A stretch of DNA of 34,967 nt from a virus. Location of the stretch: positions 1-34,967 of the IMG/VR virus record IMGVR_UViG_3300025127_000118; one strand, 5' to 3'. This document shows, in pieces, positions 8,340 through 34,788 of this stretch (the stretch's first letter is position 1; the number at the start of each line of letters is the position of its first letter). The notes beneath the pieces were generated by a model. That model did not search any database, had not been told where the DNA came from, and saw nothing but the letters and a program-made list of their open reading frames with translations. The translations under genes were made by a program, and so were the position numbers.

Positions 8340-8684
8340 TTACCTTTTTGATTTTCGGTTCATCGCTCCGCCTTTGGATTTACGCATGATGCGTCCGCCT
8401 TTCGACTTTTTCATCATAGCTCCACCCTTAGACTTCTTCATAAGAGATCCGCCTTTTGATTTTTTCATCATAGCGCCGCCCTTAGATTTTTTTGCCAACT
8501 TAGTGATCGCTTGATTTACGCCATTACGTTTGGTTTTTTTCATCATGGCTCCGCCTTTCGACTTTTTCATGAGAGAACCGCCCTTTGATTTACGCATCAT
8601 TGCGCCACCTTTGGATTTCTTCATCATGGAACCGCCTTTCGATTTTTTACCTATGGCATAACCTTTGGTTTTTCTATATGTCAT
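8340..8684 (-). CDS. Highly basic KSKGG tandem-repeat protein
   Basis: A 114-residue protein made almost entirely of a 9-residue unit of the form KSKGGAMMK, with nine KSKGG cores in two blocks separated by a short non-repeat linker (NGVNQAITKLA). About a third of residues are Lys or Arg. It has no hydrophobic segment or signal peptide. The composition suggests binding to DNA, RNA or an acidic protein surface. It lies in a run of five consecutive basic genes between virion genes. Function unknown; the repeated coding sequence is prone to unit gain or loss. Confidence 0.65.
   Translation of the reverse strand: MTYRKTKGYAIGKKSKGGSMMKKSKGGAMMRKSKGGSLMKKSKGGAMMKKTKRNGVNQAITKLAKKSKGGAMMKKSKGGSLMKKSKGGAMMKKSKGGRIMRKSKGGAMNRKSKR
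8340..8684 (-). repeat. 27-base tandem repeat coding for KSKGG units
   Basis: Almost the whole gene consists of diverged 27-base units (plus-strand core like CCGCCTTTCGACTTTTTCAT), with at least nine recognisable copies. Confidence 0.75.
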
Positions 8685-8693
8685 ATCCGCTCC

Positions 8694-9008
8694 TTAAATA
8701 CGCCCAAACAAACCCATGTTTGAGCTTTTTGTTATTTTACCACCACTTGCAGCAAATGTTTTCACATTAGTGGGTTTGCCGCCCACACCTTGTTTTTTTG
8801 CCCGCTTTCTGCGAACCGCTGATTTAATTTGTGATTTTGACATTCTTGCTGCTTTGGCAGCTGGTACACACTTGGGGTACTTTCGTTTGCGGTCTTTTTC
8901 TAACTTTGACCTACCACACTTTGCGTAGCCACCGCCCTTTTTAGGGGCGCCTATGTCCACCCAATCTTGTTTAAACCACTCGGTAAGGCCACCTTTAGGC
9001 TTTGCCAT
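8694..9008 (-). CDS. DUF5872-like basic phage protein
   Basis: A 104-residue protein starting MAKPKGGLTEWFKQDWVDIG, followed by KKGGGYAKCGR and KYPKCVPAAKAARM. This is the signature I associate with the DUF5872 family, a small lysine-rich protein frequent in marine phages. Two Cys flank a charged helix. It is strongly basic with no membrane segment. It overlaps the upstream gene by 14 bases. The biochemical role of the family is not known to me. Confidence 0.7.
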   Translation of the reverse strand: MAKPKGGLTEWFKQDWVDIGAPKKGGGYAKCGRSKLEKDRKRKYPKCVPAAKAARMSKSQIKSAVRRKRAKKQGVGGKPTNVKTFAASGGKITKSSNMGLFGRI

Positions 9009-9285
9009 GTTGCCTCCTGATAGCCTCTTTGCCTTTTTTAAACACGTTAGCTATGCCAGTTTTACCCATCACTTTGGCACGCTGCTCGCCTACTGTAAGT
9101 ATTTGTATTTTACGGGCAAACGGTTTTTTAATTCTTTTGACTTTTCGCACGGTGGCATCAGCATCTTTCATGGTTGCAAATTTAATGCTGACGGTGTCTT
9201 TAGGGTTTTCGTCTGTGTAAAGCCTTCTACCAGATCCCTTTGGCTTCTTTCCAATGCCTACTTTGGGATCTCTTTTCTTTTTCAT
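8995..9285 (-). CDS. Small basic phage protein (KGSGRRLYTDENP)
   Basis: A 96-residue basic protein with the distinctive block GSGRRLYTDENPKDTVSIKF and then ATMKDADATVRKVKRI. It resembles short hypothetical proteins recurrent in marine phage contigs. The start codon overlaps the stop of the 48-residue upstream gene by 4 bases (ATGA). Function unknown; it belongs to the basic-protein run. Confidence 0.6.
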   Translation of the reverse strand: MKKKRDPKVGIGKKPKGSGRRLYTDENPKDTVSIKFATMKDADATVRKVKRIKKPFARKIQILTVGEQRAKVMGKTGIANVFKKGKEAIRRQHGKA

Positions 9286-9428
9286 TTTCTTTTGTATTTT
9301 GCACTTTTGCGTTTTGTGCCATCAGCTCTTTTTATCAAACCTCTAGCTTTTGCTTGTGCGCGTTCACTAGCACCAAGCTTTTTGCCCTGCTTCATTTTAC
9401 GTTTGATTGTGCTTGCTTTGGCAACCAT
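9282..9428 (-). CDS. 48-residue lysine/arginine-rich protein
   Basis: A small gene read directly from the sequence: ATG at 9428, TGA at 9282-9284, 48 codons. The product begins MVAKASTIKRKMKQGKKLGA and ends KSAKYKRK. Nearly 40% of residues are Lys or Arg. Both ends are coupled: its ATG shares a base with the upstream TAA, and its TGA overlaps the downstream ATG. That exact fit, and composition like its neighbours, make it likely to be real. Function unknown. Confidence 0.65.
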   Translation of the reverse strand: MVAKASTIKRKMKQGKKLGASERAQAKARGLIKRADGTKRKSAKYKRK

Positions 9429-9874
9429 TATGAACGTGGCACTCTGGTTTTTTTGCGCTTGCTATCCATCATCGCGCCACAGCCACGCCCTTGAACCATA
9501 ACCGTACCGCCTTTAGCCATGAAACCCATGCGGTTCCTTACTTTAGTTGGTAATTTTGGCAGACCCTTGTTGCCTTTGGGTATTGGTTTGAGTGAAACCT
9601 CACCACCTTCAGCTTTTTTGGCTCCCTTATACTTGCCGCCCATCTTCTTATATTGAGAAACCATATAAGCATTTGCGTAAGCACTTGGGTACACATCGAA
9701 TTTTGCTTTAGCTTTTGCTTTCGCCTTTCGATATAAGGATGGGTTTGCCACATTAGCTGGTACGCTACCGCCTTTTTTCATCTTGATCGCGCCTAGAGTT
9801 TTAGCTTGTTGTGCATGTGTCTTGCTTGCTTTCTTCAATCCTTTAATTACTTTGTTTAGTTTTTTTTGTGTCAT
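9428..9874 (-). CDS. Basic phage protein with YPSAYANAY motif
   Basis: A 148-residue basic protein with NPSLYRKAKAKAKAKFD followed by VYPSAYANAYMVSQYKK, then Gly/Lys-rich sequence (MGGKYKGAKKAEGGEV, MAKGGTVMVQGRGCG). The YPSAYANAY block is conserved in small marine-phage proteins that I associate with DUF5872-type genes. It shares one base with both neighbours (TAATG junctions). No membrane segment. Unknown role. Confidence 0.6.
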   Translation of the reverse strand: MTQKKLNKVIKGLKKASKTHAQQAKTLGAIKMKKGGSVPANVANPSLYRKAKAKAKAKFDVYPSAYANAYMVSQYKKMGGKYKGAKKAEGGEVSLKPIPKGNKGLPKLPTKVRNRMGFMAKGGTVMVQGRGCGAMMDSKRKKTRVPRS

Positions 9875-12139: not shown

Positions 12140-13963
12140 TTATCCGTAAATTTTTTGGTAGGCCTCACCTCTACCAGCATTCACAATCTGTCTTTTGTAT
12201 TTTTTGATCATGGTTTTTGCAGCATGCTGTTGGGCTGATGTCCATTGATCTTGCCTCGCAAGGCTTTTGCCGAAATTGCTGTCTGTCCCGTTGAAACCCA
12301 CCCCATCTTCTTCAAACGCTCCGTCACACGCACCCGCGACAACAGAAACAAAATCCTGTAGTGCAACCACCACATTTGCAGGCAAAGGCTTAGGCGACTT
12401 TTTGAATACTTTTTCCACGGACTCCACATCTATTGCTATCTCCTCAATACTGACGTTGTTTTCAACCACGTTGTCTAAAGCCTTATCTAGCACTTTTTGC
12501 TTGCTAACAAGCACTTCAGCCAACCTGGCGTCGATTGAACCATCAACAACCAAGTGTTGGACCAGCACTGAGCTGTCCTGACCAATTCTGTGGCATCGAT
12601 CTTCTGCTTGTGACACGTTACCAGGCACCCAATCAAGCTCCGCAAACACTACGTGACTTGCAGAAGTCAGGGTGATTCCTACACCCGCAGCACCGATGGT
12701 ACCGATGAACACATCAGCGTTGCCAGCTTGGAAAGTGTCCACAGAGTTTTGTCTGTGAGCTTGCGTGCAGTCGCCTGTAAGAGTAACCACAATCTTACCA
12801 GCTGCCTCTAAGCCTTCTTTAATGCCGTCAACAACGTCTTTGTGATGAGCCATAACGACCACTTGATGGTCGATATCGGCTACGTGAGCTACTACATCAG
12901 CTACTTTCGCCAAAGCAGTATCGTGACGCACACCTGACATACGTTCAAAATCTACATCTTCTGAGGATGTTTCTGTAACCGCATCTGCAAGAGTCTCAAA
13001 CTCTTTTTTTATCTGGTCACTATAATGGTTACTTGGCAACACGATGATCTGACGTACCTTTTCAGGAAGCTCTTTTAATACTTCGTCTTTTTTCCTGCGG
13101 ATCATAAAGGATTGACGCAACAGTCTTTGCAGCTCATCTAGGTTAGAGGCTCCGTCAAAATGCCAGCCAAATCTGTCTTTATATGCGCTGGCATATCTAC
13201 GACCAAACTTGAAAAAGTTACCAAAAGTAACAGGGTCAAGATAACCAGCAATCGGCTGTAGTTCGATAGGACGGTTTGTAATTGGTGTCCCGGTCAATAC
13301 AACCTTGCGGTTTGCTTTGATTCCTACAGCAACGCCGGTTCGCTTGGCTTTTGGATTCTTTATGTAGTGCGCCTCGTCCATGATAACAAGGTCCCAAGTG
13401 CGTGCGCTGATTGTATCTTGGTGCTTAGTTAACACATCGTAGTTAATAATAACCACATCAGGCGTCTCAGGAATCTGCTCACCACCACCGTTGACGATCT
13501 GAATGTCCCGCTCCGAAACCAACCATTTGTTCATTTCGTTCTTCCAATTGATCTTGAGAGAAGCTGGACATACAACCAAAACAGTTTTTGGAGCTGTAGC
13601 ATTGATCACGCCGATAGCTTGTATGGTTTTACCTAGACCCATTTCATCACCGATCAACGTAGATTGACGCTGTGTCGCATAAGCGATGCCAGCTTTTTGA
13701 TACGGAAGATAAGACAGTCCAGCCGGGACCGGGATCTCGATGTCTGCATCGACAGCCTGAGAATCAGCAATTGCCTGATCGTTGTCTCTGAGGCGGGTAA
13801 CTACCCACTGGTCATCGACCTTGCGTACAGAGTAACCAGCGGCCTTGACTGCTGCTTTACGCTCGCGCCATACCTGCCAAAAGTCTGAGTTAGGCTTGGC
13901 AGTGCTGATGAAACGACCATCTGTGTGGACCGTTTCTGCTGACCAATCTAGTTTCAATTCCAT
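12140..13963 (-). CDS. SNF2-family DEAD/DEAH helicase
   Basis: A 607-residue superfamily 2 ATPase. Walker A is DEMGLGKT (106-113), the DEAH box is at 196-199 (MDEAHYIKN), motif III is LTGTP (223-227), and the helicase C motif VI is EDRCHRIGQ. Residues 1-80 form a small N-terminal segment. The C-terminal 80 residues carry a separate helical domain. The organisation resembles small SMARCAL1-like SNF2 translocases that remodel DNA or replication forks. It may aid phage replication, recombination or defence escape; the sequence does not decide. It has its own promoter (13996-14024) and terminator (12121-12138) between capsid and virion genes, which suggests an independently acquired moron. Confidence 0.93.
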   Translation of the reverse strand: MELKLDWSAETVHTDGRFISTAKPNSDFWQVWRERKAAVKAAGYSVRKVDDQWVVTRLRDNDQAIADSQAVDADIEIPVPAGLSYLPYQKAGIAYATQRQSTLIGDEMGLGKTIQAIGVINATAPKTVLVVCPASLKINWKNEMNKWLVSERDIQIVNGGGEQIPETPDVVIINYDVLTKHQDTISARTWDLVIMDEAHYIKNPKAKRTGVAVGIKANRKVVLTGTPITNRPIELQPIAGYLDPVTFGNFFKFGRRYASAYKDRFGWHFDGASNLDELQRLLRQSFMIRRKKDEVLKELPEKVRQIIVLPSNHYSDQIKKEFETLADAVTETSSEDVDFERMSGVRHDTALAKVADVVAHVADIDHQVVVMAHHKDVVDGIKEGLEAAGKIVVTLTGDCTQAHRQNSVDTFQAGNADVFIGTIGAAGVGITLTSASHVVFAELDWVPGNVSQAEDRCHRIGQDSSVLVQHLVVDGSIDARLAEVLVSKQKVLDKALDNVVENNVSIEEIAIDVESVEKVFKKSPKPLPANVVVALQDFVSVVAGACDGAFEEDGVGFNGTDSNFGKSLARQDQWTSAQQHAAKTMIKKYKRQIVNAGRGEAYQKIYG

Positions 13964-17064: not shown

Positions 17065-17490
17065 TTACACGCTCATTATATCATCTGGATTAAGGATTGT
17101 GGCTATGACTTCGTCGTCATTAATAATTCTGACTTCAGCACCGTCTTCGAGTTTGAAACGAGAACCAGCGTAACGGCCAATCATCACCCATTGCTTTTCA
17201 CAGCACCATGGCGTGTCGCCAAAGCGATTTTTGTCGTTATAACACTGAGGTCCCATCGCCACAACATAAGCAACAACAGTCGCCAAAGACTCTCTTTCGA
17301 CGGTTTCACTTGTCAAAAGAATACCGCCCTTACTTGTGTTTTTACCGCCATATGGCAAAACCAGCATCCGCCAGCCTGTTGGCTGAGGCATTCGCTCTAA
17401 CACTGATTTATCTAGTAGGGTGGGATCGAGGACTCTATCGTCGGAATCGACGTAAGCGTCTACGATTGCTTTTTTTGCTTGTTCAGACAT
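17065..17490 (-). CDS. GroES-like co-chaperonin
   Basis: A 141-residue protein with a Cpn10 pattern: PTGWRMLVLPYG (first strand), a mobile-loop region KNTSKGGILLTSETVE (about 50-65), TVVAYVVAMGP, an RYAGSRFKLEDGAEVRIIND segment and a final EVIATI. About 35 extra N-terminal residues precede the fold compared with bacterial GroES (about 95 residues). A Cys pair (WCCEKQW) is unusual. By analogy with T4 gp31 it may cap host GroEL to fold the capsid protein; it lies directly before scaffold and capsid genes. Confidence 0.85.
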   Translation of the reverse strand: MSEQAKKAIVDAYVDSDDRVLDPTLLDKSVLERMPQPTGWRMLVLPYGGKNTSKGGILLTSETVERESLATVVAYVVAMGPQCYNDKNRFGDTPWCCEKQWVMIGRYAGSRFKLEDGAEVRIINDDEVIATILNPDDIMSV

Positions 17491-22611: not shown

Positions 22612-23007
22612 TTATTCTCCCCATGTGCCGTCGTCTTTGACTCTGGCAAGTTTCTTACCGCCAAAATATTCAACGGCATGTCCTTCGTTAACAAGTGTTT
22701 TGCAAATGTCAGCACCGTCTTGATCATACGGTATACCAAGGATCCTGCCGTACTTGCCTTTGCCAAGCGACTTGATCTTGAATCGTCCAATGCATAACTC
22801 CTTTAGTCTTTCTTTTGCTTTCAGGCCTAAAGCCTTTTCTGCAAGATTTCTTGTTCTAGATTCGGGTGTGTCAATTCCGTGAAGACGAACACGCTGTTTG
22901 GTTAAATTTACATCGAATCCAAGCCGGAGCGTTATATCAATCGTGTCACCGTCAATTACCCTTTCAAGCTCGGCCTCATAAACGTATGCTTCTGGGGCAT
23001 CACTCAT
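22612..23007 (-). CDS. Staphylococcal-nuclease-like (thermonuclease) protein
   Basis: A 131-residue SNase fold with the main active-site residues present: Asp21 (IDGDTID), Arg41, Asp46 and Glu49 (RLHGIDTPES) and Arg88 (KYGR). It hydrolyses DNA or RNA with calcium in known members. No signal peptide is seen, so it probably acts in the cytoplasm or after lysis, perhaps degrading host DNA. It overlaps the o-spanin gene by 8 bases and sits inside the lysis cassette. Confidence 0.88.
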   Translation of the reverse strand: MSDAPEAYVYEAELERVIDGDTIDITLRLGFDVNLTKQRVRLHGIDTPESRTRNLAEKALGLKAKERLKELCIGRFKIKSLGKGKYGRILGIPYDQDGADICKTLVNEGHAVEYFGGKKLARVKDDGTWGE

Positions 23008-23389
23008 CTGGCTTCTCCTCTGTTTCTAAATCTTTATCTTGCTCCCTATAATACTCTATTATCGCCAGCACATTAGTAACGTATCGTTTAAGCTCTGCCA
23101 TGTTCATGCTAAGGCTTTCATAACCCTGCGTCGATAATGCATAGTAGGGTTCAGCTGGCGCCTTGCCTTCTTTGACCAGCTGTAAATATTCCTCCATCAC
23201 CTCTGGCGTAAGCACACGCCACTTTATGTCTTGCAGGTTTACCTCTAAAGGCATAGGAGGGTGGTACATCGGAGCAGGCAAAGTAATTGTTTTGATCTCC
23301 ACAGGAGCAGTGCGTGGTTGAAACAAAGAGCAACCACTAACAACAAAAACTAAACTAATTACTAGCAGGTGCCTCATCTGTACTCTCAA
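23000..23389 (-). CDS. Outer-membrane spanin-like lipoprotein (Rz1-type)
   Basis: A 129-residue protein with an N-terminal signal ending in VVSGC; Cys20 is a lipobox cysteine. The rest is Pro-rich near residues 28-48 and contains IKWRVLTPEVMEEYLQL, a pattern seen in phage o-spanins. It overlaps the i-spanin-like gene by 35 bases, as Rz/Rz1 pairs often do. It would join the outer membrane to the inner-membrane partner at lysis. Confidence 0.72.
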   Translation of the reverse strand: MRVQMRHLLVISLVFVVSGCSLFQPRTAPVEIKTITLPAPMYHPPMPLEVNLQDIKWRVLTPEVMEEYLQLVKEGKAPAEPYYALSTQGYESLSMNMAELKRYVTNVLAIIEYYREQDKDLETEEKPDE

Positions 23390-23768
23390 ACATGTTTGGA
23401 TCTGTTAATTCTAAAAACTCTGTTTTTACTTTAGCTGTGCCTTTGTTAATTATGTTTTCTATCAGCCCCGGCTTTGCCATTGCCAGATTGTTTAGGCTGT
23501 GGCGTTGAAAGGTATTTCTGAGTTGATTGACTTCGCGCACCGCTTCTTGATTCTGCGCGTTGAGCTGATTAATTTGCTCTGTCGTTTCTTTTTGCTTGGC
23601 TAGGTAGTTGTCTATGCTGGCGTTTTGTTCTTCTATTTTACCTTCTAATAAAATTGCATTTGCTTTGAGCGTAGAGATTTCTTTCGCCTGCATTTGTACG
23701 AAAAACCATAGACCGGCGGTTACTATTAAGAGTAATCCGGTAGAGACTGCTGCAAATTTGAATCCCAT
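23355..23768 (-). CDS. Inner-membrane spanin-like protein (Rz-type)
   Basis: A 137-residue protein with one N-terminal transmembrane helix (about 7-25), then a periplasmic coiled-coil (about 30-90). A conserved-looking GLIENIINKGTAKVKTEF segment follows. This topology and its overlap with the lipoprotein gene support an i-spanin. Its start lies 43 bases inside the cyclase gene. Confidence 0.72.
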   Translation of the reverse strand: MGFKFAAVSTGLLLIVTAGLWFFVQMQAKEISTLKANAILLEGKIEEQNASIDNYLAKQKETTEQINQLNAQNQEAVREVNQLRNTFQRHSLNNLAMAKPGLIENIINKGTAKVKTEFLELTDPNMFESTDEAPASN

Positions 23769-25516
23769 GTGTATACGTTTAATGCCTCGCTTTTACCTTT
23801 CACTTTAATCGGTTCTAATGATTTTAACAAATATTTGCACTTTTGTGCAGTATTGTATCCAATTAAAATATCTACGCCTGCTTCCTTCGTTGCGCTCTCT
23901 AATCTGGCCGCTACATTTACAGCGTCACCGATAGCCGTGTAATCGAATCTTGTGTCCGATCCCATATTGCCAACCACTGCCTCACCACTGTTTACGCCTA
24001 CGCCAATAGCAACATGAACCGGGAGCTTTTCATTTAACTCTTTGACTCTTTCTTGTATGCGTATGGCAGCTGCGACTGCTCTATTTTCTTGTTCTGGAAG
24101 ATCTAAAGGTGCCGAGAAGATGGCCATACAAGCATCGCCGATAAATTTGTCAATGCAGCCACCAGCACGTTGTATTTCTTCTACTTGGACCGTCAAGGTA
24201 GCATTCATTACCTCAGTAACCTCTTGTGGAGACAATTTTTCACTTAATGATGTGAAGCCACGCAAATCGGTAAACAAAAACGTGCAATATCTCGTTTCAC
24301 CACCTAATTTCAACAAATCTGGGTCTTTTTGAAGCTGTTTTACCTGTCTAGGATCCAAATAATGCTCAAATTGCTTCTTAATTTGCTGTCTGAGGCGGTA
24401 TTGGGTGCGAAAATTCAAATAAAACGCTCCTGAAGCCGCAAAAAACTGCGAAATCAGGCTCCAAGTCACGTCTAGAAGCACTCCAGACTGTATTAGATAG
24501 ATTCCAGAGTAAGCTGTGAGGCCAAATATTGCCAAAAACGATGTTACACCCCACGTAACGCCAAGTTGTGTGACTAACAACCACACAAGAGCCACAGAAA
24601 ACGCAAAAATGCCCAGTTCAGCGGCGTAGGACCAGTCAGGTATGCGTGGGCTGTCTTGTATCAAAATGGATTCAGCTAGAGCCGCTTGTATTTTATGTGG
24701 CTCAAGCAATCCAACCGGGGTCGCCAGTTGCGGCATGATACCCATGGCGTCGGTGCCAATGAAAACAAACCGTTCTTTTACGTCCATTTCGGATAAATTT
24801 GTTTCGTCGGTTTTTACCCAGCTAATCCACTTGCGGCCAAGCGAGTCTGTAGGCACAGGCGGCAAACCTTGCACTACAACCTCCTGTATGCCGTTCTGAT
24901 TGGTTTTAATAATGTAGGTATCAGCGCCCACCATGCCTTTCAAAACTTCCGTACCGAAAGCAGACACCCATCCATCGGGTGTTTTCATAAGCAAAGGCAT
25001 GCGCCTTACCAGCTGATCGACATCCACCGGGGCAGAGGCAATACCTTGCGAAGCAGCGTTTCTCAGGATCTCTATGTTTTGCACTACGCCAGAAGCAGGA
25101 TAACCGCCAATAGGCTCACCCATAATTACAGTGCCTACGGTAGCTGGGTAACCGCTTCCTGGATTCTCGTACATGGCAAGAATACTGTTACGATCTTGCA
25201 AAGATTCTGCAAATTTTTTGTCACCACCCATCCGGTCAGGCTGTGGAAACGCAACAGTCCAGCCAACACCAAAAGCTCCACGGGCCATCAATTCGGTTTG
25301 TATTTCTGCGAGTATAGCTCTAGGTAACGGCCAGCCACCCTCACGTTCTATGTCTTCTTCAGTAATGTTGAGGATAGTAAAGTAATTAGATTGTTGTTTT
25401 TCAGGGACCAATGCATCAAATGTTTTAAGCTTTAAGATCTCTAAAGGAGACCACTGCATTATAAATGGCAGTGATAATACAAACACCACTGCTATAGTTT
25501 TGAATGATGTCTTCAT
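23726..25516 (-). CDS. CHASE2-domain class III adenylate cyclase
   Basis: A 596-residue membrane cyclase that would make cAMP from ATP. An N-terminal TM (about 5-20) leads to a periplasmic CHASE2-like domain (about 25-290), then three TM helices (300-368), then a cytoplasmic catalytic domain (about 405-585). Metal-binding Asp417 (FTDLRGFTSL) and Asp461 (KFIGDACMA) are present, as are Lys457 and Thr527 (substrate choice, adenine type) and Asn534 and Arg538 (VNVAARLE). It looks complete and active. It overlaps the FecR gene by 4 bases (ATGA) and the spanin gene by 43. This is unusual cargo for a phage; the signal sensed is unknown. Confidence 0.92.
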   Translation of the reverse strand: MKTSFKTIAVVFVLSLPFIMQWSPLEILKLKTFDALVPEKQQSNYFTILNITEEDIEREGGWPLPRAILAEIQTELMARGAFGVGWTVAFPQPDRMGGDKKFAESLQDRNSILAMYENPGSGYPATVGTVIMGEPIGGYPASGVVQNIEILRNAASQGIASAPVDVDQLVRRMPLLMKTPDGWVSAFGTEVLKGMVGADTYIIKTNQNGIQEVVVQGLPPVPTDSLGRKWISWVKTDETNLSEMDVKERFVFIGTDAMGIMPQLATPVGLLEPHKIQAALAESILIQDSPRIPDWSYAAELGIFAFSVALVWLLVTQLGVTWGVTSFLAIFGLTAYSGIYLIQSGVLLDVTWSLISQFFAASGAFYLNFRTQYRLRQQIKKQFEHYLDPRQVKQLQKDPDLLKLGGETRYCTFLFTDLRGFTSLSEKLSPQEVTEVMNATLTVQVEEIQRAGGCIDKFIGDACMAIFSAPLDLPEQENRAVAAAIRIQERVKELNEKLPVHVAIGVGVNSGEAVVGNMGSDTRFDYTAIGDAVNVAARLESATKEAGVDILIGYNTAQKCKYLLKSLEPIKVKGKSEALNVYTWDSNLQQSLPDYS

Positions 25517-26712
25517 CCCTGCTTGATCTTTATCACAGAGCTGCCGCCACCGTTGATCGTAATTGTTTTACTAACACCATCTTGTATAAATATCACCGTA
25601 TATGCGCCAGAGCCGTCTATATCTACTCTTACGTTTTCACTGACATTACGTCGCAAACTAATTTGTTGACCTTGTATAATGGTGGTGATTTGTGTTGATG
25701 GATCTTGACCAACAGAAGTTCCGGTGATGGCTATGCTTGTTTCTATCTGATCTATTTCGTCATCACTCAATGCGTCTAGATCTTCGACAATATCAAGTAA
25801 GTCTTCAAGAAAATTAACGTCCAAGAAGTTGATATCAAGCTCCTCGAAAGCAAGCTCTGCTTCTGCATCAAGATAGTCCACGTCCAGCTCGTCAAACTCC
25901 AACGCATCAAAGTCTAAGACGTTGCTTGCTTTAGATACAGATTCTTCAGCTGCAATCTCTTCTTCTTTTGGCGGTGAGACGATCAACATGTTGTCGATCA
26001 GATCCAAAGTAATATCGAGCAGTACAGGGCGAGTAGGTACGCTTTCATAAACCGAAGCAGTAGTTGCTTGATACGGTTTGTTTAGCGTGACAGTGCCAGC
26101 CCCGGTAGCCACTATAATTTCACCAGAGGCATCACCATTTGCATCAGGCAATAGAATAATCAGGCTACGTCCCAGCTCATCTACCGTGCAGGTAAAATCC
26201 GTACCTCTTATTGCGATTTGTGCGGTGGGGGTAGTGATGTTGATGCGCTCTTTATTAATAAGGCCCATCTTTGAAGTTATGAATCGTGCAGTGCCGGAAG
26301 CAAAGCGTAAACTTAACTTAGATTTGTCTGGATCTGGATTGAAGATATATTCGGTTATAACTAGCTTGCTGTGTTCTGTAAGCCTAACGACAGAATCGTC
26401 CACAAACGTAATACCGATCCTGCCAGCTGCGGTCCTTACATCGTCCATTTGCTGAACCGGGAAAGCCATGGTGACGCCATAAGCGTCATCGCGTATGATT
26501 TGCGCGTTGCCGTTTAGTTCTGAAACTTTGCCTATATCAGCAGGAAGTGCTTGTACCTTGGTCGTCTTGAATAATGCACAAAGTACCACCAGTAGAATTA
26601 GTAATGATTTTAAGCCAGTCGTTATTAAGTGTTGATTGCTGCTGTATGTTGAAAGTTCTGCTGTTTCCGGTTTGATCCAAATAGAAATACCCTCCTGCTG
26701 CGCCGTCACCAT
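25513..26712 (-). CDS. FecR-domain periplasmic protein with acidic repeats
   Basis: A 399-residue protein. A hydrophobic segment (about 34-48) ends in VQA-LPAD, a plausible signal-peptide cleavage site. A FecR-like domain follows (about 60-210; GRIGITFVDDSVVRLTEHSK, TPTAQIAIRGTDFT). Residues 266-325 are an acidic repeat (units like LDFDALEF and ELDINFLDVN), then a beta-rich C-terminus (QQISLRRNVSENV). FecR-domain and CHASE2-cyclase genes are commonly paired in bacteria. The start is uncertain: the ATG at 26712 lacks a ribosome site and gives a 30-residue leader, while a consensus AGGAGG lies inside the leader with no ATG after it. Confidence 0.85.
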   Translation of the reverse strand: MVTAQQEGISIWIKPETAELSTYSSNQHLITTGLKSLLILLVVLCALFKTTKVQALPADIGKVSELNGNAQIIRDDAYGVTMAFPVQQMDDVRTAAGRIGITFVDDSVVRLTEHSKLVITEYIFNPDPDKSKLSLRFASGTARFITSKMGLINKERINITTPTAQIAIRGTDFTCTVDELGRSLIILLPDANGDASGEIIVATGAGTVTLNKPYQATTASVYESVPTRPVLLDITLDLIDNMLIVSPPKEEEIAAEESVSKASNVLDFDALEFDELDVDYLDAEAELAFEELDINFLDVNFLEDLLDIVEDLDALSDDEIDQIETSIAITGTSVGQDPSTQITTIIQGQQISLRRNVSENVRVDIDGSGAYTVIFIQDGVSKTITINGGGSSVIKIKQG

Positions 26713-27244
26713 CGTATGTCAAATTATTACTATCTCCATCTATATCAAGATACGAAGTGGCGCCATCTATGTCTAACGCATAGTTTATTGTGTTTCCATC
26801 TCCATTAATAATCCAGTCAAGATCTAGCTGCGAAGCCAAGCCAGCTGTGCCATGATTTAGTGTAAAAGTGTTGGTCGATCCGGTGACATCTACGTTGTAA
26901 TTCGAGCTGTCAATACCAAAAGTATTGGTTGGATCCCCTTGAATGGTGAAGGAATTTGTATCTCCGTCAAACTCAAAAAAGCCGGTGATCGAATCACCCG
27001 TTATGTCTCCGAGAAATTTATTGGTGTTACCGATTTGATTGATATCGAGGGTGAGTCCAGTCCCGTCAAGATCAAAAGCTGTCAGGGTACCGGCTACTGA
27101 GTTCAGGCCTCCGATGATATTGGAGCCGCCTAATTGTTCTAGGTCTATGTTGGCTGTTGCGCCACTTTGGTCCACGTACACTTCATTATCAGCTGCCCAT
27201 GCTGATAACGTGACAAACAAAAATATTGCTGTGTAGCGTTTCAT
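26537..27244 (-). CDS. Curlin-like secreted repeat protein
   Basis: A 235-residue protein with a signal peptide (MKRYTAIFLFVTLSAWA, cleavage before ADNEV). The mature part is made of repeats with alternating Gln/Asn/Gly/Asp, such as VDQSGATANIDLEQLGGSN, LDINQIGNTNKF and YLDQTGNSRTFNIQQQS, the style of curlin beta-strand-loop-strand units. There are two Cys near the end (TLC..., STSC), unusual for curlins. It lies next to CsgG and CsgF homologues, so it is the probable export substrate. It overlaps the FecR frame by 176 bases. The repeats are degenerate, so amyloid formation is inferred. Confidence 0.78.
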   Translation of the reverse strand: MKRYTAIFLFVTLSAWAADNEVYVDQSGATANIDLEQLGGSNIIGGLNSVAGTLTAFDLDGTGLTLDINQIGNTNKFLGDITGDSITGFFEFDGDTNSFTIQGDPTNTFGIDSSNYNVDVTGSTNTFTLNHGTAGLASQLDLDWIINGDGNTINYALDIDGATSYLDIDGDSNNLTYDGDGAAGGYFYLDQTGNSRTFNIQQQSTLNNDWLKIITNSTGGTLCIIQDDQGTSTSC

Positions 27245-28071
27245 CTCCTAACCGTCCAATACTTATATTCTATTCCTTCTTTGATGGTTTGTAAAACGGC
27301 CGTCTCAATTGCAGCTTGAAGTGCAATGTTGACTGATTCATTTCGCACTACTCCACCCTCTACTTCGACAAGCTCTGTAGAATTGGCTACGAAACGAAAA
27401 ACGTCATTATCAAGCGATGCACTCAATATTGTCTTAGATACTAGAACTTCCATTAACACCTTCCCGGTTGTTACGGAAACTGTTCTTAGCGAAACTTGTA
27501 CAGTGTCCCTCCTGTAAGCTTTGCTCATCCCTATCCCTAAATAACGCGCACCAGCGCCTCCGCTGGTAGTGTTAGATTCGTAACCTATAACACCACCTTC
27601 CATTATAAGTCCAGCAAAGACTAAAGGTGGTAACTTTTGTTTTTCGTCAAAACTTTCACGGGTAGACCGAATCAGCTGGCGCTCTTTTGTGACGTGATCT
27701 AATCCCACGCGCTCAACGACCTGGAAAAAACCTTCGTTGTTTTTACCCGCATGTTTCAATGCGCGTATGAGATAAGCATGTGGCGCTTGTGTAATCGCTG
27801 TGCTAAAAGTTGCGAATTGGCTGTTGCTTCTACGGGCGCCGGTTTGGTCAGTGAATGATTCTCTGTATACGGCTATAACCGGAGCGCGGATGGGTGGGTC
27901 TACGTTTAACAATTCATCATTAACCAAGCTTCTGATTTCAGCTTGTTCGATTCTTTGTATGGGGGCGATGTTGTTTTCGATGGGATCCGGTATGAGGATC
28001 GTACAAGAAGCAAGCAAGTAGCTAGAAAGTAAAGCTACCGATAGGGACCGTAATCTCTGTGGTGTTGCCAT
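27241..28071 (-). CDS. csgG: CsgG-like curli secretion channel lipoprotein
   Basis: A 276-residue protein from the ATG at 28071, giving a lipoprotein signal that ends LLASC; the frame stays open to 28113. It matches CsgG strongly by eye: FSTAITQAPHAYLIRALKHA, MEGGVIGYESN, SGGAGARYLGIG and SKTILSASLDNDVFRFV have direct counterparts in E. coli CsgG. CsgG forms a nonameric outer-membrane pore that exports curli subunits. In the constriction the Phe of FSTA is kept, but the positions of E. coli Tyr51 and Asn55 appear as Ser and Thr. It overlaps csgF by 50 bases and the curlin-like gene by 4. Confidence 0.92.
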   Translation of the reverse strand: MATPQRLRSLSVALLSSYLLASCTILIPDPIENNIAPIQRIEQAEIRSLVNDELLNVDPPIRAPVIAVYRESFTDQTGARRSNSQFATFSTAITQAPHAYLIRALKHAGKNNEGFFQVVERVGLDHVTKERQLIRSTRESFDEKQKLPPLVFAGLIMEGGVIGYESNTTSGGAGARYLGIGMSKAYRRDTVQVSLRTVSVTTGKVLMEVLVSKTILSASLDNDVFRFVANSTELVEVEGGVVRNESVNIALQAAIETAVLQTIKEGIEYKYWTVRR

Positions 28072-28573
28072 CAGAGTCGGTAATCTTGAGTGTGATAAGT
28101 CCAGCTGTTTCATCTACTACATATTCTATTGTGTTTCCTAGTAATTCTATTATTCCGCTAAGGCTTGGATTTTCACCAAACAGCGCATCTACTAACTGAC
28201 GTGACAGCTGCGCATACACTCTCGATTCCAAATTTCTAATAAATCTTGCAAGCGTGCTGTTTTCTTCGTCACGCGCTAATTTCTCATTATACGCTTTTAT
28301 TTCAGCCTTGATCGCTTCCTTGCGATTAAACTCTTGGTTTTCAATAGTAAGATAGTGTGCAGATGTACCGATGCCAGAAAAGCTCGGAGACTTAAATTTG
28401 TGGACCATTTCGTCAGCGCTTGCAACAGAGGCATACAAAACAGAAAAGACTATAAAAATTATGCCAGACACGGCGAACCACATTTTAATTTTTTCGTCGC
28501 GTGCCTCTTGTTGTTTTTGCTTTAGGCTCGGCCTGCCTCTTTTTCTCTGCTTCATTATGTTTTTGTACAGCAT
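28022..28573 (-). CDS. csgF: CsgF-like curli assembly factor
   Basis: A protein of up to 183 residues. A hydrophobic signal ends near SVASA-DEM, followed by HKFKSPSFSGIG, which parallels the pore-inserting N-terminus of CsgF (F-x-x-P-x-F-x-G). The C-terminus (ITLKITDSDGNTTEITVPIG) matches the CsgF end. CsgF couples CsgG to extracellular curlin. The start is unresolved: ATG at 28573, 28555 or 28483; the last follows the upstream stop by 1 base and gives a signal without basic residues, while longer forms have a basic RKRGRP leader coded in the overlap. Confidence 0.85.
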   Translation of the reverse strand: MLYKNIMKQRKRGRPSLKQKQQEARDEKIKMWFAVSGIIFIVFSVLYASVASADEMVHKFKSPSFSGIGTSAHYLTIENQEFNRKEAIKAEIKAYNEKLARDEENSTLARFIRNLESRVYAQLSRQLVDALFGENPSLSGIIELLGNTIEYVVDETAGLITLKITDSDGNTTEITVPIGSFTF

Positions 28574-28802
28574 CAGCTTCTCTTAGCTCAATCACTGTAT
28601 TAACTTTCTCTTGTAATCGTATCATATCTTGATCTAAAAGTCTGAGTTGGTCCGTCAGGCGTATGATTGTGTCCTTCATGTCTTGGACCGCAGGATCAAT
28701 TACGTTGGTGATTGTTTGCCAGACAAAGTAAACGAAATAACCTAAACCGATAACCATGACTACGGGAAAGCCAAAGTCTGCGACGAGCTTGGCTACGTCC
28801 AT
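28485..28802 (-). CDS. Single-TM coiled-coil protein, YvrJ/holin-like (copy 2)
   Basis: A 105-residue protein with LVADFGFPVVMVIGLGYFVY (TM about 8-28), then a long charged coiled-coil and a basic tail. The LxxxFGFPVxxxxGLGYFV pattern resembles the downstream half of YvrJ-type and phage holin-like proteins, and it is paralogous to the gene just upstream. It may act as a holin, antiholin or membrane anchor. It overlaps csgF by up to 89 bases depending on the csgF start. Confidence 0.6.
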   Translation of the reverse strand: MDVAKLVADFGFPVVMVIGLGYFVYFVWQTITNVIDPAVQDMKDTIIRLTDQLRLLDQDMIRLQEKVNTVIELREADAVQKHNEAEKKRQAEPKAKTTRGTRRKN

Positions 28803-29098
28803 TAGTCGCGCCTAGCGTCTATTTTCCCGTCTTCTACAAAGTTTTCCGCACGCGCTATGCGCTGCAAGTCTGGTGGGATGTGTAACGCGCTGGATACGCT
28901 GGTGTCTATGCGTATCATATCGTTGTTCATAATAGATGCCCTAGTAATTAGCATCTTGGATATGCCTTGTATGGTTTTGATCTCATCGACCAAACCATTC
29001 ATCATTTGGCGCATAACCAGAAAAATGAAGTAGCCCATAATTAGGCCGCTCGCTATCGGGAGTCCTAATTCTGCAATCAGATTAAGCTGATCTTGCAT
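28802..29098 (-). CDS. Single-TM coiled-coil protein, YvrJ/holin-like (copy 1)
   Basis: A 98-residue protein starting MQDQLNLIAELGLPIASGLI, with one TM (about 14-32), then a helical cytoplasmic or periplasmic part. The same layout (E/D-LG/FG-LP then G-Y-F) occurs in the next gene, so the two look like a tandem duplication that has diverged. The ATG of the next gene shares one base with its stop. Confidence 0.6.
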   Translation of the reverse strand: MQDQLNLIAELGLPIASGLIMGYFIFLVMRQMMNGLVDEIKTIQGISKMLITRASIMNNDMIRIDTSVSSALHIPPDLQRIARAENFVEDGKIDARRD

Positions 29099-29276: not shown

Positions 29277-29594
29277 TTACTCTTCGCCTTTGAAATTTTT
29301 AGAGCTGTTAGATGTTCCAGCGTACAATCCAAACCACGCAGCGCCTGCTCCTACAATAATAGAGATGAGGCCAGATTGCTCTAGTGATGGATCTGGCAAG
29401 CTCATAAACCACATAGTCGAATAATACAAAAGGAATATATAGACGGTGAGAAACAATCGAGGGAAAATACGCCAGGCATCGACAGCTCTAGCTAGATAGA
29501 TCCACTTTTGATAAGGATTGATGCCACGCTCCACAGTGGTCGTGCCGACTTCTACTTCTAGCTCAATCTTTTTTTTGGTTACTTCCTCGCTCAT
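29277..29594 (-). CDS. Two-TM holin-like protein
   Basis: A 105-residue protein with a polar N-terminus (1-40), two TM segments (about 45-65 and 75-93) and a short charged C-terminal tail ending GEE. Size, topology and nearness to endolysin and spanin genes fit a class II holin, which would let the signal-less lysozyme cross the membrane. Several other membrane genes nearby could share this role, so which one triggers lysis is unclear. Confidence 0.6.
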   Translation of the reverse strand: MSEEVTKKKIELEVEVGTTTVERGINPYQKWIYLARAVDAWRIFPRLFLTVYIFLLYYSTMWFMSLPDPSLEQSGLISIIVGAGAAWFGLYAGTSNSSKNFKGEE

Positions 29595-30567: not shown

Positions 30568-33222
30568 CTATCCTATCTTTACCGCCACCAAAGGTCTGCC
30601 ATCACTTTCGGTTGCCCATATTTTTCCTACGCATAATTGATATTCTTCAAATGTAGGATTTGATTTCGCTACACACTGTATACCGCTACCATTCGCTTGC
30701 GGGTATACATAATCACCAACATTGAAAGAACCTGTTATATTTACTGGCACTTGGCCGCTAAATGCTATTCTATCGTGCTTTTGTCTTTCAGCTTCGTATT
30801 GTTCCTCTGTTAAATTTAACTCGACTGAACCCCATATATCTCCTCCAACATAAGATGGGTCAGTTGATTTTATTACAAAAGAAATGGAGTTACTAAACAC
30901 ATCTGTTAGCTTGCCTGTTGAGTCAACACCACACACGTCGCCCTTAGCGATAGTGCCGCAAGCATCTGCTTTTTTCATGTATTCAGCGTAGTCAGCTCCA
31001 GAGGCGTTTATACTGCCTCCTGCACTTATAGATCTTGCATTACCAGAGTGTCTGCCTACTTTCATGGCAGTCGTGCCAGAGTCGTATAAATTTTGTGATA
31101 CTACTTCTAAAACGAAAGGTGTAGCATTTGAACCACCGCCTTGTGCTACAAAATATGTGTCACCATCAGTTTCACCGCTTCCCAACCCTTGCCTAATACC
31201 ACCACCAGATACTCCCAGAGTAGCCGTAGTACCAAGGTGTAAATTTCGCTCTGCACTAAACCTAGCCGTTTCAGTTGACGTGCCGCCAGTAAAGAAAGCA
31301 ATGCTTTGACCACTATTTATGATCATGGCATTGGCAGTGGAGCCATTGTGGTCTATGAATTGGAGGGCAGCTTCATCGCTAGAGCTATTGTCTCTACCGA
31401 TCATGTTGATACAAGAAGCGCCGCCGTCAGCTGCGACCTCTAAGGGTCCACCCGGCGAGCTTTCTAGTATACCTACTCGGTCATTGCCAGCATCTACGAA
31501 TATAGCGTGAGTGTTGCCGTTTGACTCGACGCGGAAGTTGTAATCGTTGCTAGCTTCGTTTACAACCGTTTCGGACGCGCCGATAACCATACGTTCTGCT
31601 AAAGCCCCGTTAATATTATTACCGGGGTTAGTGTGAAACGTAATGTTCCCAGAGCTAGCGTTACCTGATAAATCAGCATGATTTAACCTAATCTCGGCAA
31701 CCGACGAATTTGCATCGTGAGAAGGTTGGTTAGGATTTATACTTGTTCCTCTAAGCTTTAATAGTGCTGTTTGCGTATAATCATTGGATGCAGAATTACC
31801 ACCTGTTAATAAAATTTCACCTGTGCTGTTATGTCCTATTGTGTCTACGTCTAGAGAATAATTAGGACTCGTAGTTCCTATGCCTACGTTTCCAGTAGAA
31901 AGTACTGCTAAAAGTTCATCTGATACAGAACCCGACGAACCATATCCAACTCTCCAATAATCCGTAGAGGCTGAAGCGACCAACATATTATCAAAAACGA
32001 CATTATCACCCGCTCTATAAGCAACACTTGGATTATTGCCTGTGCCAGCTGTTTTGATTGTTAAATCAGGATTACCCGAAGCAGCATTAATAAAGATGTT
32101 GCCTACTGTTTCGATTGTTTGTGTGGGACTTGCAACGCCCACTCCTAAAAATCCACCAGAAGTAAGTGTCATTCTAGTTGCTGCTGCTGCACTGGATCCT
32201 GTCATAAAACCCAAGCTAGTAGCGTTACTTGAGGCACTAAAATCACCTTCTGAAATTGCTTGTATAGCTGCTGCTACTAATATTGCATCTGTTCCCGCGC
32301 CTTCATCTGGAGCTTGAAAAGATATTTTTCCTAAAACATCATTTGCCGCTATATCTGTTTCAGATGTTTGTAGAGTAAGAGACATAGGATTATCGTCCCC
32401 TGTACCTACATTTTTGAGTGTGACGGCTCCAGCCTCAGTTATAGAAATAATTGGTGTTGTTCCTACTGTACTCCCTAAACCAACAATTAAATCATCTGCT
32501 GAATCGTCTAGTGCTATATAAAAATCTTGAGCGTTACCATCAAAAACAATTTTAGTATCTTCTGCTCCAGCATCACCTATTGTTAGTGTGGGTGTCGTTC
32601 CAGTTAGTTTTACACCAGCAGTTGCGGTGAGTTCTTGTGCAAATGAAGTGCCACCGCCATCTGAAATAGTTATGGCGTTGTCGCCATCAGTAAATCCTAT
32701 GTTTGCTGTTTGTACTTCACCAGATACAAGTAAATCGCCGCCTACTGACGCATCGTCCGTTACCGTTAAATCGTCTTGTACTTTTAAATCAACAACGCTA
32801 AGGCTTGCAAAAGCATCGACTACAGCAGCGCCACTCCCGGCGCCGTCTAGGTAAACGACTTTCACGTCTCCCGGCGGTATGGTTACATTCGCCCCACTAC
32901 CTTGGGAAATAATAATATTTTGTGAGCCAGATGTGCCATTTTCAATAAAATGTAATCGGCTTAATGTGTTCGGTGCGATGGTTATTGTGCAGGCTGAATC
33001 AAGTGTGCCGGTGTACTTGATGTACATAGATCGTGCTGGATCTGTAGAGCCATCGGCAACGGTAGAAGTGTGAGTATCGGCGTTGGTAGTAATAGCTTCT
33101 GTGCCAAAAGAAAGAGCTTCACCTATCAATTCAAGGTTAACATTCGTTTCGGTTCCCCAAGTTCCTGAAGACTCTCCGGTGCCGATCTCTTTTAATCTGA
33201 GGTCATTTACATAGGTTGCCAT
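30568..33222 (-). CDS. Tail fibre with GIGTTSP repeats and Peptidase_G2-like end
   Basis: An 884-residue fibre. The N-terminal 100 residues (LRLKEIGTGESSGTWGTETN) resemble the virion-binding part of marine fibres. Long beta-rich sequence follows with repeat units such as TGNVGIGTTSPNYSLDVD. From about residue 735 the C-terminus has GADYAEYMKKADACGTIAKG and later KSTDPSYVGGDIWG, the pattern of the Peptidase_G2 intramolecular chaperone, which trimerises fibres and cuts itself off. It probably recognises the host surface. An extended -10 and AAAGGAG site precede the ATG. Confidence 0.8.
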   Translation of the reverse strand: MATYVNDLRLKEIGTGESSGTWGTETNVNLELIGEALSFGTEAITTNADTHTSTVADGSTDPARSMYIKYTGTLDSACTITIAPNTLSRLHFIENGTSGSQNIIISQGSGANVTIPPGDVKVVYLDGAGSGAAVVDAFASLSVVDLKVQDDLTVTDDASVGGDLLVSGEVQTANIGFTDGDNAITISDGGGTSFAQELTATAGVKLTGTTPTLTIGDAGAEDTKIVFDGNAQDFYIALDDSADDLIVGLGSTVGTTPIISITEAGAVTLKNVGTGDDNPMSLTLQTSETDIAANDVLGKISFQAPDEGAGTDAILVAAAIQAISEGDFSASSNATSLGFMTGSSAAAATRMTLTSGGFLGVGVASPTQTIETVGNIFINAASGNPDLTIKTAGTGNNPSVAYRAGDNVVFDNMLVASASTDYWRVGYGSSGSVSDELLAVLSTGNVGIGTTSPNYSLDVDTIGHNSTGEILLTGGNSASNDYTQTALLKLRGTSINPNQPSHDANSSVAEIRLNHADLSGNASSGNITFHTNPGNNINGALAERMVIGASETVVNEASNDYNFRVESNGNTHAIFVDAGNDRVGILESSPGGPLEVAADGGASCINMIGRDNSSSDEAALQFIDHNGSTANAMIINSGQSIAFFTGGTSTETARFSAERNLHLGTTATLGVSGGGIRQGLGSGETDGDTYFVAQGGGSNATPFVLEVVSQNLYDSGTTAMKVGRHSGNARSISAGGSINASGADYAEYMKKADACGTIAKGDVCGVDSTGKLTDVFSNSISFVIKSTDPSYVGGDIWGSVELNLTEEQYEAERQKHDRIAFSGQVPVNITGSFNVGDYVYPQANGSGIQCVAKSNPTFEEYQLCVGKIWATESDGRPLVAVKIG

Positions 33223-33258: not shown

Positions 33259-33807
33259 TCAAGCTGCATCTCGGCCTGCTTTTATCTCCTCATAACCGGG
33301 AGTTTGTGTTGTACTTATTGTAGCGTAATTAGGAGTTTGTGACGTATCTATTTCGCCGTACACCAAAGTCGTGCCGACACTTACTGTCGCTGACTGACCT
33401 GTAGGCGTTACGTTAGCAGCTGCATTTGTTGTAACCGATCCCAGTCCAGAAGTCATAGACAAGCCTGTAACTTCTGCTACAGCATTGTGGTGTACTTCTA
33501 CGGACCCAAGTGCTGAGGTTACAGCTCTGCCGGTAGGTGTTACGTTAGCCTGGGCGACAACCGATACCGATCCTAGCCCGGATGTAACCGCTTGCCCTGT
33601 AAGTGCTTGGTTTGCTTGCGCGACGACAGATAGTGAACCTAAGCCAGATGTTATTGCACGGCCTGTCGGTGATACGTTTGCCTGTGCAACTACAGCGACG
33701 GATCCAAGGCCAGATGTTATGGCTTGTCCAGTTACGTTAACAGGTAGTTCGGTTCCCCAAGCGCCTTCATCCCATGCGCCTCGACCCCACCCGTTAATAT
33801 TGGCCAT
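33259..33807 (-). CDS. 22-residue tandem-repeat virion-type protein
   Basis: A 182-residue protein: an N-terminal NGWGRGAWDEGAWG aromatic-glycine motif, then about five and a half copies of a 22-residue unit of the type VTSGLGSVSVVAQANVTPTG, then a short tail. Each repeat looks like a beta-hairpin, so the protein may be an elongated tail part. It lies just upstream of the tail fibre. Its start shares a base with the stop of the 46-residue gene. Confidence 0.65.
   Translation of the reverse strand: MANINGWGRGAWDEGAWGTELPVNVTGQAITSGLGSVAVVAQANVSPTGRAITSGLGSLSVVAQANQALTGQAVTSGLGSVSVVAQANVTPTGRAVTSALGSVEVHHNAVAEVTGLSMTSGLGSVTTNAAANVTPTGQSATVSVGTTLVYGEIDTSQTPNYATISTTQTPGYEEIKAGRDAA
33358..33726 (-). 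repeat. 66-base tandem repeats coding beta units
   Basis: Five full and one partial copies of a 66-base unit, diverged; protein core TSGLGSVSVVAQAN. Confidence 0.8.
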
Positions 33808-33990: not shown

Positions 33991-34788
33991 CTAGGAAGCT
34001 ACTCCCTGAAACTTGCGATTTAAGATCTTGACGACTTTGTTTGGTGAGAAGTCTTCGTAACCTGCGTGCGTGTTGGCAACCTGCTTTGCAATGCGTCTGG
34101 CACCGAGGCCACGTTGCTTACACTTTTGTATGGTTTTTATAACAGCTTGCTCTTCAGGTATCTCTACCAGTTTTTTGCGCGTCTTCATACGGTTACCTTG
34201 TGGCAGTCGTTCTTCTTCAAATTCAAAGCCAAAGGGTGCGGAGCCACCGATTGAGTAACCACGTTGCGCCCAAGCAATCTTGCCTTCTGCAAATTTCTTT
34301 TTGGTGTTTTCAAACTCCATCTCAGCAACAGCTGACAAAACCATCAACATAATCTGGTTTACCAGCGAGTTCATGTCGTACTTAGACTCTAGACCTTTTG
34401 CGGCCATCTCTTTGGGATAGACCACCGGCATGTCGTTGAATTGTTCGCACAGATATAAAGTCACGCCGCTTTCTTCCAGATGCGGAATCGTTTGCAGTAG
34501 ATCGTTACAGCTACGTGATAGCCTGTCGATCCGAGTAGCAATCACGATGTCATACTCATCAATCACATCGGTCATGGCCCGACACTGCTCACGCTCCATG
34601 ATCGGCACGGTCCCAGATACGCCAGCATCTATAAACCACTCAGTAACATCCCGGTTAAATTTATCGCGCACAAACTCAGAGATCAGCTCTTGCTGGGTAT
34701 CGATAGAGATCCCGTTCTCAGCTTGCTCGGTGGTGGATACACGGCAATAGCCGTAGATGTTGCGAATTTGTTTTTTTGGATTGCTCAC
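33991..34788 (-). CDS. Serine recombinase (resolvase/invertase family)
   Basis: A 265-residue site-specific recombinase. The catalytic N-terminal domain shows YGYCRVSTTEQ with nucleophile Ser18, then TRIDRLSRSCNDLL and a long E-helix. The C-terminal 75 residues (IPEEQAVIKTIQKCKQRGL; FSPNKVVKILNRKF) look like a shortened recombinase domain with a helix-turn-helix. It lacks the Cys-rich zinc ribbon and coiled-coil of large serine integrases. It starts with GTG at 34788, overlapping the upstream gene by 4 bases. It could integrate or resolve phage DNA, or invert fibre DNA; the adjacent repeat is noteworthy. Confidence 0.88.
   Translation of the reverse strand: MSNPKKQIRNIYGYCRVSTTEQAENGISIDTQQELISEFVRDKFNRDVTEWFIDAGVSGTVPIMEREQCRAMTDVIDEYDIVIATRIDRLSRSCNDLLQTIPHLEESGVTLYLCEQFNDMPVVYPKEMAAKGLESKYDMNSLVNQIMLMVLSAVAEMEFENTKKKFAEGKIAWAQRGYSIGGSAPFGFEFEEERLPQGNRMKTRKKLVEIPEEQAVIKTIQKCKQRGLGARRIAKQVANTHAGYEDFSPNKVVKILNRKFQGVAS

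Follow-up and report, generated by a model that had tools for sequence, protein, structure and literature searches.

A curli-type exporter module with putative curlin-like substrate, FecR-fold protein and CHASE2 adenylate cyclase in an HTVC023P-type podophage

Curli-type or type VIII secretion systems (T8SS) of phages have been described from several marine lineages. CsgG and CsgF were reported in HTVC008M and pelagimyophages (PMC7029224), as an initial annotation of the DNA studied here had noted, and csgG has been listed with the virulence-type genes that marine phages carry most abundantly (PMC7003362). A full module with CsgA/B, FecR, a cyclase and genes annotated as histidine kinase (“HK”) was found in HTVC023P-type podophages and re-annotated in pelagimyophages (Wittmers et al, 2022; PMC9599517). 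According to that study, the pelagiphage order is “HK”-csgF-csgG-csgA/B-fecR-(csgA/B)-cyclase, the modules are expressed in metatranscriptomes and distributed ocean-wide, phage curli modules are frequent in the ocean, accounting in GOV2.0 for about 0.1% of the viral proteins assembled, CsgE is absent from alphaproteobacterial modules too, and cyclase, “HK” and FecR universally deviate from bacterial operons. Proposed functions are a lysis pore in the phage Melnitz (PMC9004378) and an uptake pore (PMC7029224; PMC9599517). GenBank holds labelled curlin genes for both Pelagibacter phage HTVC008M (KC465899) and Methylophilales phage Melnitz (MZ577097), the latter unrecognised in PMC9004378. Viral curli sets were thus published between 2020 and 2022. 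Here we analyse a further example in a marine phage, the IMG/VR virus record IMGVR_UViG_3300025127_000118, of which positions 1 to 34,967 (34,967 nucleotides) constitute the window.

The module extends from position 29098 down to 23726 with all genes on the minus strand, in the order small protein pair, CsgF, CsgG, curlin-like protein, FecR and CHASE2-adenylate cyclase, followed in succession by i-spanin, o-spanin, nuclease, lysozyme, TerL and portal (Table 1). The initial annotation had taken csgF, csgG and the curlin-like gene as one unit; their same-strand overlaps are as it described, but the unit also holds the small pair, FecR and the cyclase. We read it as a type VIII system by which the phage would export an acidic curlin of beta-solenoid form, with coupling through FecR to cyclic AMP (cAMP), an interpretation we favour with somewhat better than even confidence. 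The phage is a member of the HTVC023P-type podophage group as judged by its TerL (57–62% identical to 023Pt_psg01, HTVC027P and HTVC023P) and portal (45–53% identity). The window shares both phage group and gene order with the pelagiphage modules of Wittmers et al, the place of “HK” being taken, by position and copy number, by phrog_18771 proteins; it differs in having only one curlin gene, a GC content of 44.7% and “HK” genes without a kinase match. HTVC008M and Melnitz carry the cluster small pair-CsgF-CsgG-curlin-FecR-curlin2-cyclase, with CsgG 45–46% identical to that of the window, but are T4-like myophages with a second curlin and with the module apart from the lysis genes.

Table 1. Coordinates of the module and of neighbouring genes in the window.
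Feature	Coordinates	Strand	Description	Matches
o-spanin gene	23000-23389	-	Rz-like spanin	spanin pair: phrog_739 E=2.2e-14, phrog_812 E=1.7e-15
i-spanin gene	23355-23768	-	Rz-like spanin, directly 3' of module	spanin pair: phrog_739 E=2.2e-14, phrog_812 E=1.7e-15
Endolysin (phage lysozyme)	22128..22790	-		PF00959 E=3.3e-37; phrog_7 E=1.2e-49
CHASE2 sensor + class III adenylate cyclase	23726..25516	-		PF05226 E=1.5e-29; PF00211 E=3.8e-18
FecR-fold protein	25513..26712	-	hydrophobic N-terminal segment, FecR domain, acidic linker, C-terminal beta domain	PF04773 E=1.8e-10
Curlin-repeat-like FecR tail	25513..25635	-	FecR residues ~360-399: ...YTVIFIQDGVSKTITINGGGSSVIKIKQG	
Curlin-like substrate	26537..27244	-	signal peptide + ~217-aa acidic repeat protein	
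csgG	27241..28113	-	outer-membrane lipoprotein export pore, lipobox LLASC	PF03783 E=6.3e-45
csgF	28022..28573	-	secreted pore-extension/plug protein	PF10614 E=8.9e-16; phrog_35372 E=3.8e-46
Small protein B	28485..28802	-	105 aa, paralogue of A	phrog_18771 E=2.4e-24
Small protein A	28802..29098	-	98 aa	phrog_18771 E=3.5e-23
Two-hydrophobic-segment small protein	29277..29594	-	candidate holin by position only	phrog_10198 E=2.3e-22

Both exporter proteins are recognised by their Pfam profiles. The CsgG match spans residues 76–288 and nearly the whole profile (8–208 of 210), bearing out the extensive homology noted in the initial annotation, and a profile of the phage CsgG family finds the E. coli CsgG structures with E=1.6e-96. 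Together with the lipobox, these matches place phage CsgG in the CsgG family of outer-membrane lipoprotein pores. For CsgF, homology had initially been seen at the two ends of the mature protein, and the Pfam match now covers the profile from end to end (3–132 of 132); a search of the PDB with the single CsgF sequence gave no real match. Read from the sequence, the N-terminal FCP-like motif F-x-x-P-x-F-x-G is kept. In E. coli, CsgF narrows the CsgG pore rather than opening it. Compared with E. coli curli, the window shares CsgG and CsgF homologues and a curlin-family substrate with a signal peptide, whereas FecR, the CHASE2 cyclase and the small membrane pair are added and the pore constriction differs, Y51, N55 and F56 of E. 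coli CsgG aligning to N, T and F. As in the initial annotation, CsgE, CsgC and CsgD were not seen: none had a match among the module genes scanned in this window, itself a genome fragment, with no dedicated search made for CsgC and CsgD.

The putative substrate is strongly acidic (of 217 residues, 30 are acidic and 3 basic; isoelectric point 4.05) and carries two cysteines in its C-terminal region. Its relationship to curlins is seen through its family rather than in the window protein alone, which has no Pfam match: the curlin repeat profile Curlin_rpt (PF07012) matches five of 21 family members (best E=8.6e-6), and the window protein finds the repeat-rich curlin of a cellular csgFG operon in a Hyphomonas metagenome-assembled genome (MAG) with a BLASTP E value of 1e-8, the family profile doing so with E~1e-26. 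The secreted curlin-like protein initially proposed beside the exporter therefore stands by signal peptide, family matches and bacterial homologue, and the case for the three genes as a whole lies far beyond what chance would give. The family alignment contains 57 invariant columns. An AlphaFold2 model is all-beta and solenoid-like (predicted local distance difference test 77.5, predicted template modelling score 0.77). Comparison by VIA-align yields Z=11.1 for the CsgA fibril and up to 15.6 for other solenoids and is thus not specific; Foldseek returned no match below E=0.001, and a search of solved-structure sequences with the curlin profile gave only antibody-like chance matches. An amyloid on the host surface, as first suggested, is plausible, and our guess is that the protein folds outside the cell in Ca/Mg-rich seawater.

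To place the module among its relatives, three scans of viral contigs were combined with profile searches of each locus, resulting in 163 CsgG loci, or 116 after collapsing near-identical CsgG. The locus counts given here and below refer to the best-scoring 80 loci per scan, reflect shared ancestry rather than independent events, and score presence only where the contig ends permit a test. CsgF is present in 113 of 113, the curlin in 88 of 88 and FecR in 77 of 77 testable loci; the cyclase occurs in 44 of 58 and a second curlin in nine of 58. An exporter accompanied by its own substrate, considered unusual in the initial annotation, is therefore the rule in these loci. In view of the literature, including the 2022 publication (PMC9599517), and of the GenBank curlins of HTVC008M and Melnitz, we rejected the idea that phages had not been known to carry such a full set. 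Pairwise Nei–Gojobori comparisons with close relatives, ignoring saturated pairs, gave omega values of about 0.015–0.065 for the curlin, 0.04–0.08 for the cyclase, 0.025–0.11 for FecR, 0.045–0.08 for CsgG and 0.09–0.28 for CsgF (TerL for comparison, 0.007–0.016), the values being somewhat biased by the overlapping frames of curlin/FecR and CsgF/CsgG. Purifying selection acts on all module parts for which omega was estimated. Separately, a 1,499-base “Salmonella phage” record (OR851715.1; L086) has a CsgG that groups with ordinary bacterial CsgG and is likely host DNA contamination.

PF04773 is found in 41 of 41 relatives of the FecR protein. Its AlphaFold2 model consists of an N-terminal hydrophobic helix, the FecR domain, an acidic low-confidence linker (about residues 244–324) and a C-terminal beta domain (335–398), and superimposes on the cell-surface signalling domain of PupR (6ovk_R) with Z=16.0 and a root-mean-square deviation of 2.5 over 136 aligned residues. 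In FecR/PupR signalling, this type of periplasmic domain reports on an outer-membrane channel. The phage protein shares the domain fold but has no cytoplasmic anti-sigma part, its N-terminus being a hydrophobic segment; the genes scanned hold neither a TonB receptor nor a sigma factor as its partner, and its neighbours are the curli genes and the CHASE2 cyclase. The FecR profile had no match among PDB sequences, and the C-terminal domain no clear fold match among solved structures. The start of fecR overlaps the end of the curlin gene out of frame by 176 nucleotides (26537–26712), and because such long overlaps recur in relatives, translational coupling of the two genes is suggested.

The last 40 or so residues of FecR resemble a curlin repeat, a suggestive likeness that draws on three observations. 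Phage FecR tails end in phi-x-phi-x-Q in 82 of 84 unique tails. The pattern QxGxxNx[AVI]x[VIA] occurs in 44 of the 84 and not once in the FecR bodies, which amount to 43,075 residues. Finally, when FecR was compared with the curlin alignment by HHalign, the tail was the best-scoring window, and none of 100 column shuffles scored as well.

The cyclase matches solved cyclases with E=4e-33, and D417, K457, D461, N534 and R538, which correspond to the two metal-binding aspartates, the adenine-contacting lysine and the transition-state asparagine and arginine of class III cyclases, are intact in 92–93 of 93 distinct relatives. Such a set of residues marks a class III cyclase that is active and specific for ATP. 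Judged by these positions, the sensor-cyclase should make cAMP. A literature search for a link of CHASE2, FecR and cyclase to curli found none.

The two small proteins at the 5' end each have a predicted transmembrane segment and a coiled coil, as judged by eye; in protein A the transmembrane helix is N-terminal and the conserved C-terminus ends in …DARRD. By position, we infer that they are the “histidine kinase” genes of earlier annotation. With 98 and 105 residues and no kinase family found in Pfam (22 members) or NCBIfam, a histidine kinase identity was rejected. A holin identity is less likely: the matches are weak (phrog_4898 E=0.002 for protein B, YvrJ E=0.043), and the genes track the T8SS, not the lysis genes. 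A small protein lies 5' of csgF in 98 of 98 testable non-redundant loci, with two copies in 79, a count that takes in loci for which the small protein served as query; where CsgG alone did so, it is present in 59 of 59. Conversely, 76 of 78 loci fetched by the small-protein family hold CsgF/CsgG. Of the two exceptions, one is a truncated contig. In the other (L356, 3515–4781), the small pair is directly followed by a lysozyme, and curli genes, FecR, cyclase and spanins are all absent; either natural loss or a pre-insertion state, it is worth comparing. The small pair would be an obligatory phage partner, possibly with a role in gating or transducing.

Cellular counterparts were sought with the phage CsgG profile in a scan that took a single genome for each species. 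It picked up short, phage-like contigs that had been binned in MAGs; among long contigs of chromosomes, the closest was one of 705 kb from Hyphomonas sp. TMED17. Here, csgF-csgG-curlin-fecR-CHASE2-cyclase are in phage order and without the small pair (L091, 8348–14371), among ordinary neighbours (TonB receptor, alanine racemase-like, FAA hydrolase and 2OG oxygenase genes). Identity between window and Hyphomonas is 33% over the length of the cyclase, 37% over 254 aa of FecR and 29% over 174 aa of the curlin, the Hyphomonas curlin being twice as long and its FecR tail lacking the curlin-type glutamines. A tree of CsgG sets Hyphomonas apart from the phage clades on a long branch, but this placement is weakly supported. 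The arrangement is rare, because some 27–28 other Caulobacterales/alphaproteobacterial csgF loci had no fecR or cyclase detectable with the phage profiles within about 8 kb; a gammaproteobacterial MAG contig (L092) reads curlin-csgF-csgG-curlin-curlin-fecR. Since a Hyphomonas chromosome has the same set, FecR and cyclase cannot be regarded as additions made by phages alone, and the locus is a counter-example to the universality stated in PMC9599517 for these two of the three genes. By this comparison, bacteria are the probable source of FecR and cyclase, acquired along with the module, whereas the small pair and the FecR tail with its glutamines seem to be specific to phages. Phage-type T8SS modules on short contigs of Maricaulis, Neomarinimicrobiota, Pelagibacter and Flavobacteriaceae MAGs (L087, L088, L089, L090 and L093) are probably phage contigs binned with bacteria.

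Taken together, these data outline how the module might work. Its proteins would be delivered to the envelope by Sec, nine CsgG subunits with CsgF would form an outer-membrane exporter, and the curlin-like protein would leave the infected cell and, at the surface of that cell, fold or assemble into a beta-solenoid. FecR would sense export or assembly, its curlin-like tail possibly contacting the cargo, and would pass a signal to the CHASE2 domain that changes cAMP in the infected cell, with the small pair perhaps gating or transducing. Expression is probably late, because the module sits in a run of structural and lysis genes. Our confidence differs between these parts: export of the curlin by phage CsgG/CsgF appears quite likely, fibre or solenoid assembly outside the cell has about even chances, and coupling of FecR and cyclase to export is tentative, although we infer a sensing role from the fold match and the tail. 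Homology of all parts and a fixed order in 116 viral loci and in unrelated T4-like myophages support the scheme, as do purifying selection, the intact cyclase residues, the Hyphomonas set, the curlin-like FecR tail and the published expression of the pelagiphage modules, and export of the curlin by its own CsgG/CsgF is the simplest account, fitting all retained parts.

Several observations weigh against it. At the exporter, two constriction residues are changed relative to E. coli (Y51 to N, N55 to T), and no CsgE gate was found among the scanned module genes. At the substrate, no N22-like secretion signal is evident by eye after the signal peptide, and several unrelated solenoids fit the model better than CsgA. 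For the signalling branch, the HHalign probability of the FecR tail against curlins is 16%, the Hyphomonas tail has no such glutamines, and cAMP cannot be essential because the cyclase is lacking in 14 of 58 testable loci. Melnitz infections proceeded without clumping by cytometry or transmission electron microscopy (PMC9004378), and we found no experiments on any phage T8SS.

An alternative that we regard as unlikely, though best placed among the competitors, is that the curlin is simply displayed as an exported adhesin or shield, serving aggregation, “sibling capture” or a block to superinfection, while FecR and cyclase are inherited passengers of minor regulatory role. In its favour, loci that dispense with the cyclase always keep exporter and substrate, and in a bacterium, too, curli genes are found together with FecR and cyclase. 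Against it stand FecR being kept in every testable locus and a cyclase that, where present, has all its catalytic residues and low omega. An elaboration of the export scheme, to which we give a similarly low probability, is a trans-envelope relay: the FecR tail would dock on the exported curlin as cap, nucleator or chaperone, FecR would read export or assembly, and the cyclase would alter cAMP so that the phage sets lysis timing or host state in response to events at the cell surface, the small pair being a phage-specific gate or transducer.

The lysis genes bear on a third, still less probable explanation, according to which CsgG/CsgF is a pinholin- or secretin-like outer-membrane pore that permeabilises the envelope and times lysis, as proposed for Melnitz and raised in the initial annotation as permeabilisation of the outer membrane, with the curlin as plug or incidental. 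The podophage module does lie beside lysis genes; in the window, i-spanin, o-spanin, nuclease and lysozyme come after it, and a spanin or lysozyme directly follows the module in 42 of 58 testable loci. However, in T4-like myophages the same module stands apart from the lysis genes, and lysis can do without it, given that relatives lacking a T8SS retain both spanins and lysozyme; moreover, a substrate and a FecR present in all testable loci under purifying selection, and a selected cyclase, are left unexplained. In one of the relatives without a T8SS (L301), a gene comparable to the two-hydrophobic-segment gene of the window precedes the spanins. The uptake role suggested by others, in which an ungated CsgG/CsgF would admit larger nutrients or siderophores to the periplasm to feed phage replication while FecR reports, is very improbable: it accords with the transport-linked signalling type of the FecR fold and the lack of a CsgE match among the scanned module genes but accounts neither for a dedicated, strongly conserved curlin nor for CsgF, given that E. 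coli CsgF narrows the pore, nor for a FecR that lacks an anti-sigma part and neighbours a cyclase instead of a TonB receptor or sigma factor. A role in lysis only or uptake only is less likely because substrate and FecR are universally retained under selection.

Other genes of the window deserve mention. A 265-aa serine recombinase (33991–34788) matches phrog_95 integrase and phrog_125 invertase and adjoins a repeat protein (33259–33807) and a tail-fibre-like gene (30568–33222); its size and location point to an invertase of tail-fibre genes more than to a large integrase, but no convincing long inverted repeats were found near it. A 114-aa protein of near-identical K-K-S-K-G-G-[AS]-[ML]-M repeats (8340–8684) sits in a run of very basic small proteins (8694–9874). 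A GroES-like co-chaperonin (17065–17490; PF00166 E=2.9e-07), likewise annotated in HTVC027P and 023Pt_psg01, is found among head and packaging genes, with no GroEL noticed in the window, and a helicase (12140–13963; phrog_62 E=1.2e-107) lies amid structural genes.

In the open-access literature, and with priority uncertain, we did not find described the “HK” genes as ~100-aa transmembrane and coiled-coil proteins without a kinase match, the usual position of the podophage module beside a spanin-lysozyme cassette, the chromosomal csgF-csgG-curlin-fecR-CHASE2-cyclase operon of Hyphomonas, the curlin-repeat-like tail of phage FecR, or the intact cyclase residues and purifying selection on all parts. 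The likely benefits to the phage would be cell aggregation or retention of new hosts, a block to superinfection or tuning of lysis time. The FecR tail, the apparently obligatory small pair and the intact cyclase point to specific mutants to make, and the Hyphomonas operon provides a bacterial counterpart in which a coupling of FecR, cyclase and curli could be studied.

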